A stretch of DNA of 64,000 nucleotides from an uncultured Spirochaetota bacterium (GTDB taxonomy: Bacteria; Spirochaetota; UBA4802; UBA5550). Positions 2,317 to 4,103 of this stretch are shown here, piece by piece (position 1 is the first letter of the stretch; each line of letters begins with the position of its first letter). Location of the stretch: positions 124,001 through 188,000 of the forward strand of contig CALMRZ010000028.1 of NCBI GenBank assembly GCA_937872225.1. Reading direction: 5' to 3'. A program made the translations under genes and the position numbers. The notes beneath the pieces were generated by a model. That model was not told the origin of the DNA. It did not search any database and worked only from the letters and a program-made list of their open reading frames with translations.

Positions 2317-2541
2317 TTACGCCGCATACATGTCCACGTGTTTTACTTTTTTCAGGGGTATTTTTTTCTCCCCGTTGTTGACGTCAAAGGTGACAATCAT
2401 GTCGCCTTCAATTGATCTGTTCTTATAAAGTTCGATTTCGTTCCCATCCTCAAGAACAATGATAATATCCAATCCCTTGATATCCAGGTACTTCGCCAGC
2501 AGCTGCTTGAAGTTCTTTTTTTTCGCTTTTCTGTGTGCCAT
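2317..2541 (-). CDS. Small hypothetical protein (74 aa), basic N terminus
   Basis: ATG at 2541 is preceded on the minus strand by GAGGGGAAACC, a good ribosome binding site. The protein has a lysine-rich start (MAHRKAKKKNF) followed by alternating beta-like segments (LDIIIVLEDGNEIELYKN; GDMIVTFDVN; KKIPLKKVKHVDM). It has no signal peptide or membrane helix. Small size, basic tip and beta-rich body would fit an RNA- or protein-binding module, but I do not recognise the family. Convergent with the AOR gene and sharing its terminator. Confidence 0.65.
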   Translation of the reverse strand: MAHRKAKKKNFKQLLAKYLDIKGLDIIIVLEDGNEIELYKNRSIEGDMIVTFDVNNGEKKIPLKKVKHVDMYAA

Positions 2542-3048
2542 GGTTTCCCCTCAAGAAGATTATTTATGTCTCATTTAAATTATCGGAATTTTCATTAATA
2601 TATTAATTAATTTTTATATATATTGACAAAAATTTGTTAGTACAAATTAATTAATAGACTATCCAGCATAACTAATATGCCATCATTGAGGAAAGCGAAT
2701 ATGTCAGGTCAGTGCTGGTTTTCGAAAATGCCAGGAGCCATCCCGCTCGTCCGCCTCGTGTAAACATCCTGTTTACTCGGCGGAATCGGCAACATCCTGT
2801 TGCCTTCTCGCGGGACAGCTCCTGACACCTGTTTATATTGCTTGCTCCAGCAAATAAAGCATTCAACACCCCGACGATCATCCTTTTATCTATCACCTGA
2901 ATTTGAATTCCCGGGCTGGAAAGCCAGACAAGAAAAAATATGCCTCAACGATCTCTACGCATGTGCGTCTCTGCGAGAAAATCAAGATTTTGCTTTCCCT
3001 GTTTCAGTGTTGAATGCACATGTTTGGGAGAATTACAGATAAAACAAG
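2542..3048. other. 507-base gene-free stretch
   Basis: Divided into an AT-rich part (2560-2695, with TTGACA at 2624-2629 on the plus strand and many TTAAT tracts, likely promoter DNA for the minus-strand gene at 2541), a branched palindromic element (2701-2828, separate entry), and an unremarkable tail to 3048. Short open frames here lack ribosome binding sites and family resemblance. Confidence 0.5.
2701..2828. repeat. Branched palindromic element with twin ACATCCTGT hairpins
   Basis: Nested pairing is visible by eye. Outer stem CAGGAGC (2732-2738) with GCTCCTG (2818-2824); then TCCCGC (2741-2746) with GCGGGA (2810-2815). Inside are two arms: CCGCC (2751-2755) with GGCGG (2779-2783) enclosing GTAAACATCCTGTTTAC (2760-2776), and GGCAACATCCTGTTGCC (2788-2804). 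The two inner hairpins differ in stem sequence but share the loop ATCCT. A further hairpin with TTTTCGAAAA at its centre lies at 2715-2734, and TGTCAGG (2702-2708) could pair alternatively with CCTGACA (2821-2827). Compensating stem differences with a constant loop suggest a selected structure: a dispersed repeat or a structured RNA. Confidence 0.65.
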
Positions 3049-3990
3049 TCAGTCCTCGAAACCGATGCGCCAGAGGGCGGTGCCGGCAAGATTGTAATCG
3101 GAGGCGAGTTTCTGCAGCAGGGACCTTGTCTGTTTATCGGAGATATAAACCGTGCAGGTACGGCCGGTGTCAGAGTAAAAGAAGCGCAGGGTGCCTGAAG
3201 TATCGCGTGCCGGGGAATACTTTTCCGTAAGCCTGGCCCCCTCCCGGGCGGAGAGGGCAACTGCTTTGCCGCCGCACCACCGGTATCCATAGGCCGGAAT
3301 GCCGAGCCATATCCGCGAAGGCCTTATGCGCTCAAGGACCCTCTTGATGTTCTGTTCGGCCCATCGTATATCGGTAACCGGTCCCGGACCGGTATGGTTC
3401 CCGTGATAATCGTAGCACATGAGCACTATTTCATCCACGCGGGGCGCTATGATGTTCAGGTCATGGAACCGGTTCCATTTTTCCGGAAAACCCACCGGGG
3501 GGAACACGGCCATGGTTATCTTCCCGGAATATTCCCTGCGCAGACTTTCCAGGAAATGCCCGAGTTTTCCCGCGTCTTCCGGGGGCAGGTATTCAAAATC
3601 AAGATGGACGCCGGCGAACCCCTTTGACCGGATGAAATTTGACAATTTCACCGCTGTTTTTTCCCTCAGCGCCCGTGATGACAGGATCCTGTGTCCCTGG
3701 GCCGCGGATTTGAATGATACCAGGGGATACAGCGTCACATGGTATTTTGCTGTTATGGAGATGATTCTATTCGTGATACTGTCGGATTCGACAATAATAT
3801 CGCCTGTTTCGCCGATTTTAAACCCAGTCATCGTCAGGACCGAATAGAGCCCCATGACAGATTCAAGATAGGTATCGGTAAGGGCGGGGCCAGGCACCAG
3901 ATAACCCCATCTGGCCGGTTTTAAGTCATCGGCATAAGCCATAAACCGAAGAAGAAGGATTAACGTAATAACCTGGATTGTCAGATTCAT
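3049..3990 (-). CDS. Secreted glycoside hydrolase family 18-like protein
   Basis: 313 residues from ATG 3990, whose first residues (NLTIQVITLILLLRFMAYA) form a signal peptide with a likely cut after AYA. A longer reading from TTG 4038 would bury that signal. The body fits the GH18 TIM barrel as in YaaH-type spore and cell-wall enzymes: GVHLDFEYL carries the terminal D-x-E of the family's DxxDxDxE motif, with the catalytic Glu kept, followed by LMCYDYHGNH and later IWLGIPAYGYRW, a typical GH18 barrel strand. Expected role: hydrolysis of N-acetylglucosamine-containing polymer such as peptidoglycan or chitin outside the inner membrane. The first two Asp of the motif are not conserved (Ala/Val-His region), so activity is not assured. 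Confidence 0.75.
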   Translation of the reverse strand: MNLTIQVITLILLLRFMAYADDLKPARWGYLVPGPALTDTYLESVMGLYSVLTMTGFKIGETGDIIVESDSITNRIISITAKYHVTLYPLVSFKSAAQGHRILSSRALREKTAVKLSNFIRSKGFAGVHLDFEYLPPEDAGKLGHFLESLRREYSGKITMAVFPPVGFPEKWNRFHDLNIIAPRVDEIVLMCYDYHGNHTGPGPVTDIRWAEQNIKRVLERIRPSRIWLGIPAYGYRWCGGKAVALSAREGARLTEKYSPARDTSGTLRFFYSDTGRTCTVYISDKQTRSLLQKLASDYNLAGTALWRIGFED

Positions 3991-4103
3991 GTTGTACCTG
4001 CCGGCACCTATCCTAAACAAGAGCATGATAATATTCAAGACAATAATTCACAGTTGCGGCGTCCGGTGGGCGAAGCCCCGTGAAAAGAACCCCCCGATTT
4101 TTT

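Follow-up and report, generated by a model that had tools for sequence, protein, structure and literature searches.

A small Y-shaped, probably mobile DNA repeat with paired, covarying hairpins in a group of uncultured spirochaetes

The palindromic element at positions 2702-2827 of the window (the whole 64,000-nucleotide stretch of DNA analysed, from an uncultured Spirochaetota bacterium) is a Y-shaped copy of a small mobile DNA repeat built of nested hairpins, and its hosts are a group of uncultured spirochaetes. The repeat consists of a long palindrome, P1, tipped by a conserved Y core whose apices mostly read TCC; it is present in many copies and its stems covary. It is probably best understood as a dispersed, non-autonomous mobile DNA repeat of this spirochaete lineage, with a hairpin-pair core that is portable. 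A limited literature search found no paper on the element among the entries listed. The parts of the window copy and the genes bounding its site are as follows.

2317-2541, minus strand: gene of 74 aa, no Pfam match
2702-2708, plus strand: distal part of the P1 5' arm, TGTCAGG, partner 2821-2827
2709-2735, plus strand: 27-nt insertion in the 5' arm, containing TTTTCGAAAA (read directly)
2736-2745, plus strand: proximal part of the P1 5' arm, partner 2811-2820 except for two mismatches
2746-2749, plus strand: unpaired 5' junction CTCG, mostly conserved in alignments A1 and A2
2750-2784, plus strand: hairpin P2, base and inner stems, apex TCC at 2767-2769 (fold; A4 covariation helices 2 and 3)
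2788-2804, plus strand: hairpin P3, GGCAACA/TGTTGCC, apex TCC at 2795-2797 (fold; A4 covariation helix 4)
2807-2810, plus strand: unpaired 3' junction CTCG, mostly conserved in alignments A1 and A2
2811-2827, plus strand: P1 3' arm (fold; A4 covariation helix 1)
3049-4026, minus strand: GH18-domain gene, the other boundary of the site (PF00704, E 2.7e-17)

The long outer stem P1 closes a three-way junction of the hairpins P2 and P3. Direct reading places the inner P2 hairpin, GTAAACA-TCC-TGTTTAC, at 2760-2776 above a base stem TCCGCC/GGCGGA (2750-2755/2779-2784), and P3, GGCAACA-TCC-TGTTGCC, at 2788-2804; the two share the apex ACA-TCC-TGT on different stem sequences, which confirms the original prediction of two hairpins with one loop and different stems inside further nested stems. 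The 5' arm of P1, composed of TGTCAGG (2702-2708) and AGCCATCCCG (2736-2745), pairs with the 3' arm CGGGACAGCTCCTGACA (2811-2827) with two mismatches. It is broken by the 27 nt at 2709-2735, flanked by CAGG on both sides and absent, by eye, from the other copies compared; the covariance-model match at the window element spans 2726-2831. The RNA folding that had been proposed as a check gave -57.4 kcal/mol for 2690-2840, well beyond the shuffled sequences (z -4.67, with 0 of 200 shuffles equally good).

The repeat is dispersed and mostly intergenic. A BLAST search with a 141-base query returned 18 matches in the window's own genome (G000) at E <=0.01, of which two belong to a single copy, and located copies in four of the five sister genomes. 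A covariance model was built on 18 copies of one bulge class, picked by hand from the 44 then available because MAFFT misaligned the P1 3' arm, and the model then aligned the remaining copies. Applied to 59 genomes (own included), with up to 65 candidates scored in each, it yielded 106 matches in 12 genomes: within the genus 20 in G000, 5 in G001, 15 in G003, 34 in G004 and 8 in G005, and elsewhere 1 in G011, 4 in G015, 6 in G020, 2 in G023, 9 in G033, 1 in G042 and 1, partial, in G052. G002, with 0 model matches, is the only one of the six genus genomes in which no copy was found. The element is far from the single copy missing from all relatives that the original prediction had named among the grounds for giving it up; the search of genome and relatives that it called for found 20 copies at home and copies in 5 of 6 genus genomes. 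A scan across the phylum at E 1e-4 found the element in at least 11 of 392 genomes, a lower bound as up to nine candidates were scored per genome and G011 was missed; G199 was the sole addition. That genome, from a distant family, holds a lone Y-like element (L234) with a long perfect outer stem, which by eye adjoins an apparent tRNA end. Another copy starts 669 bases past the end of the window. Phages and plasmids gave no match to a 106-base query. An exact 18-mer search of genome contigs also matched three records labelled as other phyla, in which model R1 found no convincing element, the one weak match (L108) having an E of 0.015.

The fold is preserved across copies. Alignment A4 comprises 88 matches at 80 selected loci, some overlapping, and has 87 distinct rows; 92.9% of its cells are paired, compared with 37-55% when the partners are slid, and changes on both sides occur in 36 of 38 pairs. 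Double-change cells number 759, against 184.9 in shuffles (0 of 500) and at most 159 with partners slid; as A4 was fitted to the covariance model it leans towards that model, and related rows are non-independent. A2, the MAFFT alignment underlying the model, contains 58 such cells against 18.8 shuffled. P1 arms pair better with their own than with foreign partners (mean -38.7 vs -22.4 kcal/mol), and in 21 of 37 cases no foreign partner does better. In G033 and G020, which belong to other families of the order, the P1 sequence is different, reaches about 24-26 bp in L116, L117 and L127, and by eye varies in both arms between copies. The earlier proposal of a maintained fold is supported, the copies showing numerous compensating changes in their stems.

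Gene calls came from a simple codon-usage script and positions were sampled from fetched loci. Among the 78 copies with both neighbours called, those in tandem gaps are co-oriented in 34 cases and opposite in 13 (p 0.003), while divergent gaps hold 28 and convergent gaps 3; for genus copies only, the corresponding counts are 30, 8, 23 and 1. Element-free background gaps at genus loci comprise 53 tandem, 20 divergent and 9 convergent; measured against this genus background, the shortage of convergent gaps among all 78 copies is non-significant (p 0.13). The median distance from the end of the match to the next start is 113 bp in co-oriented tandem gaps. Promoter-like sites (score >=10, within 120 bases of 66 genus copies) point outward in 17 cases against 3.4 expected from single-base shuffles, and inward in 9 against 3.6.

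Selection on RNA should leave G-U intermediates in excess of A-C. Among the 1560 P1 cells, 1408 are Watson-Crick, 34 are G-T, 52 are A-C and 66 are other mispairs; lacking an excess of G-T over A-C, P1 is probably maintained at the DNA level rather than as RNA. P2 and P3 have G-T to A-C ratios of 63:13 and 25:8, with 66 of their 88 G-T cells at three pairs (44 at one conserved pair and 22 at loop-adjacent pairs). Ordinary hairpins, taken as a G-U control, gave 3 G-T and 1 A-C, too few mispairs for a comparison. Folding energies favour the minus strand in 28 of 37 copies. A comparison of 2400-3100 with Rfam 15 gave no match (the best hit, E 0.78, scored 17.1 bits where the gathering score is 50.2).

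An RNA gene or leader is opposed by the Rfam result, by promoter position and by the P1 G-U count, and is not supported. The functional RNA offered as one option in the original prediction finds no backing for the same reasons: there is no Rfam match and no P1 G-U excess, and promoter-like sites are mostly outward. The G-T surplus in P2 and P3 and the existence of some inward promoter-like sites are still compatible with RNA. A structured RNA (terminator, 3'-UTR or leader) under selection for its folding would account for that surplus, for the folding z-score, for the co-orientation in tandem gaps and for the start of co-oriented tandem copies a median of 36 bp past the upstream stop; we nevertheless regard it as very improbable, given that the 28 copies in divergent gaps would receive no readthrough from either neighbour, that a T tract is missing, by eye, after most copies, and that neither the P1 mispairs nor Rfam speak for it.

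At the site of the window element, nothing of the repeat lies between the GH18 and 74-aa genes in G002, G004 and G005, the three relatives that retain both neighbours, and the region upstream of the 74-aa gene (about 2542-2657) is conserved in G004, whose site is empty; G001, with no GH18 match in the locus, and G003, whose contig ends there, are uninformative. The empty sites may reflect insertion in G000; loss instead is also possible from these alone. Three gaps with orthologous neighbours on both sides are occupied by an element in G000 as well as in one or more of G003, G004 and G005. At one of them (G000 L173/G003 L178) the core is well conserved, with a paired change in P1; at the other two the outer arms are very different and each self-complementary, the G005 element is inverted, and one site has a perfect 9-bp duplication in G004 (L062). 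Chance predicts, on a rough estimate, well under one shared gap, which implicates ancestry, hot spots or local function. The shared sites may stem from common ancestry with arm replacement or from repeated hot-spot insertion; both fit. Upstream of the element, L173 and L178 also contain a second long palindrome, probably a terminator, whose arms by eye differ between G000 and G003 at the same site, each self-complementary. Such arm turnover may be a common property of long palindromes in these genomes.

As to mobility, the core in G004 lies inside MITE-like elements with ends GGTAGCAGTCGTAAATT. The 21-base end pattern (up to 3 mismatches) occurs at 28 sites in G004 and at none in the five other genus genomes, with 0-1 per genome for the reversed-pattern control; with no site in G000, no own-genome copy, the window's included, has G004 ends at the 3-mismatch threshold. 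Among 26 two-ended elements, 8 are flanked by perfect 9-bp target duplications and 14 by duplications identical at 8 or more of 9 positions. Mean identity of the 9-bp flanks is 6.19/9 against 2.53 shuffled (largest shuffle 3.46); at flank lengths of 7, 10 and 11 identity falls within the shuffles, and at 8 it lies just above them (3.04, largest shuffle 2.92), none being perfect. One of the 26, the 60-bp L101, is probably a chance 3' end within a core-bearing element. The G004 elements span 54-258 bp overall, and their lengths rise in steps, from 139-149 to 194-202 to 248-258 bp, with the addition of hairpin modules. The four elements L081, L085, L093 and L095 (54-67 bp) have both ends and no core, L081 with a perfect 9-bp duplication, and the core is therefore unnecessary for movement. 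In one copy, L097 (G004), the core by eye lies in inverted orientation with respect to the ends.

In G033 and G020 the same core sits inside elements with terminal repeats GAGCCTATTTCAGTAGG, unlike the G004 ends. Their flanks read TTA or TAA, with an identity of 2.31/3 against 1.91 shuffled, equal to the largest shuffle (2.31), so that a duplication is not established. L146 (G033) is by eye apparently a further element type. Extra hairpin modules occur within P2 or P3 at L015, L020, L048, L059, L075-L079, L211 and L219; by eye the P3 modules of G004 and G020 resemble each other despite the different families, and L012 (G000) and L101 (G004) have a different hairpin insert in P2, beginning TCCCGATACC.

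Bacterial MITEs, the subject of a review (PMC10969869), share with the repeat short length, non-coding sequence, multiple copies, terminal inverted repeats and, for G004, target duplications. The element works like a MITE: it is short and multi-copy with no room for a transposase gene, terminal inverted repeats are present in G004, G033 and G020, and the G004 copies, with their 9-bp target-site duplication, have the MITE features tested. It differs from MITEs in that a conserved Y core outlasts recognisable ends, that one core occurs in elements with unrelated ends, and that hairpin modules are added stepwise. Several findings weigh against the main reading. An autonomous element with G004 or second-type ends was found neither by end patterns nor by PF01609 in these draft assemblies; the ends of such a transposon would read GGTAGCAGT or GAGCCTATTTCAGTAGG. 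PF01609 had no match in G000, G004 or G020. Its single G033 match is an IS4/IS701-like frame that reaches no NCBIfam cut-off, and the second-type ends are absent from the locus of that frame. Further, the tandem-gap orientation bias is a property that plain MITEs need not show, and the three shared gaps, the G-T excess of P2 and P3 and the inward promoter-like sites likewise fit less well.

Regarding the enzyme that would move the repeat, its hairpins raise the case of a REP/REPIN-type element that travels in single-stranded form through a hairpin-reading RAYT (Y1 transposase). The element is hairpin-based, its palindromes are mostly intergenic, tandem copies show an orientation bias, and the genus is rich in RAYT-sized Y1 genes. 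PMC3733652 describes REP dimers nested in long palindromes and reports CGTC-tagged REPs from several phyla, Spirochaetes included. Most genus copies have the letters CGTC at the foot of P2, with TC paired. The nearest printed case found, REP dimers in long palindromes (GTAG-15 of A. variabilis and CGTC-1 of H. neapolitanus; PMC3733652), shares with our element a hairpin pair within a longer palindrome and the CGTC letters at the P2 foot, and differs in that the hairpins here have the same orientation. A CGTC-tagged REP, as the same paper describes it, has an unpaired CGTC at one end, an 8-9 bp stem beginning AT and a CCA-type tail (PMC3733652); by eye, CGTC is here half paired, the stem begins TCCGCC and the CCA tail is absent, and the G033 and G020 copies differ from CGTC repeats further in having no CGTC at the P2 foot.

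Genomic context and target duplications make a RAYT origin quite improbable. Of 20 Y1 loci inspected in six genomes, L048 alone has copies, at distances of 1.7 and 2.7 kb from its Y1 gene, and in G000 no copy was found around the four RAYT-sized genes (about 3 kb each side; one side only 0.7 kb). The exact P3 pattern has 44 matches in 59 genomes, 9 of them outside the elements listed by R1, and none of the six inspected has the Y fold. These six (L180, L184, L192, L193, L198 and L208) show no REP-like family either and are probably due to chance; L182 and L183 gave no central match, and G000:C78:49612 lay outside the inspected set. Stand-alone, high-copy hairpin units of 20-40 bp were not encountered with the exact P3 pattern, the sole basis of that search. 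The G004 copies have 9-bp duplications, which are typical of DDE transposition and not of Y1. The Y1 loci were searched for copies and for ATCC hairpins, and a RAYT/REP origin was rejected on the tests of membership made. The RAYT genes at L042 and L053 by eye have GGGTCAGAG near their ends instead, and they lie near genes whose G000 counterparts (L014, L016) adjoin a Y element. Of the alternatives in the original prediction, repeat or RNA, the dispersed, multi-copy mobile repeat is upheld; REP-like membership in the RAYT sense fails the tests made, with no copies in the stretches around the genome's own RAYT-sized genes and no REP-like family at the six stray P3 matches inspected, and the functional RNA is not supported.

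The SELEX consensus of CsrA is given as RUACARGGAUGU in PMC7652899, and the minus-strand apex, ACA(N)GGATGT, resembles it in loop and closing stem. Among 191 predicted loops in 84 copies, GGA occurs on the minus strand only in 155, on the plus strand only in 9, on both in 3 and on neither in 24. The gene csrA was found in 6 of 6 genus genomes. FliW, a protein that antagonises CsrA elsewhere, has a gene in 8 of 8 genomes tested. On the window's contig, fliW and csrA are adjacent, about 53 kb before the window (G000:C28:70790-71345). CsrB/RsmZ-type RNAs consist of repeated hairpins with GGA at the apex. If transcribed, the minus-strand apices might titrate CsrA in the manner of CsrB-type repeats and so form an RNA decoy or binding site, a proposal with which the strand bias of GGA, the presence of csrA in all six genus genomes, the greater stability of minus-strand folds, the downstream inward promoter-like sites (score >=10; 5 against 2.5 shuffled) and the further GGA apices brought by extra modules (by eye) are all consistent. 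The likeness to CsrB/RsmZ-type RNAs lies in the repeated hairpins and GGA apices; the copies here are, in contrast, dispersed, and most have no neighbour transcribing the GGA strand. Since readthrough from neighbours would yield the minus strand in at most 13 tandem copies of opposite orientation and 3 copies in convergent gaps, out of 78, we rank a role with CsrA low and consider it unlikely; the preponderance of outward promoter-like sites, the weak lean of P1 towards minus-strand G-U (52:34), the presence of FliW and a module 3 that by eye bears GGA on the opposite strand weigh on the same side.

Returning to the mobile DNA repeat as the preferred reading, we envisage that a transposase from another element would act on the terminal repeats and so spread the repeat, whose outer ends would decay after insertion while the palindrome is retained at the DNA level. 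The palindrome could be kept through arm-to-arm copying in replication, through selection on the DNA hairpin, or both; template switching in hairpins would be the mechanism of such copying. The Y core would be a portable passenger in elements with at least two unrelated ends, and the apices may be the part recognised by something. A more far-reaching version, to which we attach a tentative and rather low probability, is that a hairpin cassette enters palindrome apices, has crossed between unrelated MITE families of different spirochaete families, grows as it nests more hairpin modules with GGA apices, and is read at these apices by a single-strand-binding enzyme or CsrA.

Lastly, the repeat is of interest as a natural archive of palindrome maintenance in bacteria, in that arms which vary between species at shared sites, each self-complementary, surround a kept core. 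Such a repeat allows selection on RNA to be told apart from arm correction at the DNA level. That the same core lies between unrelated element ends prompts the question of whether short hairpin cassettes can move between transposons, and the CsrA-like apices allow a direct binding test.
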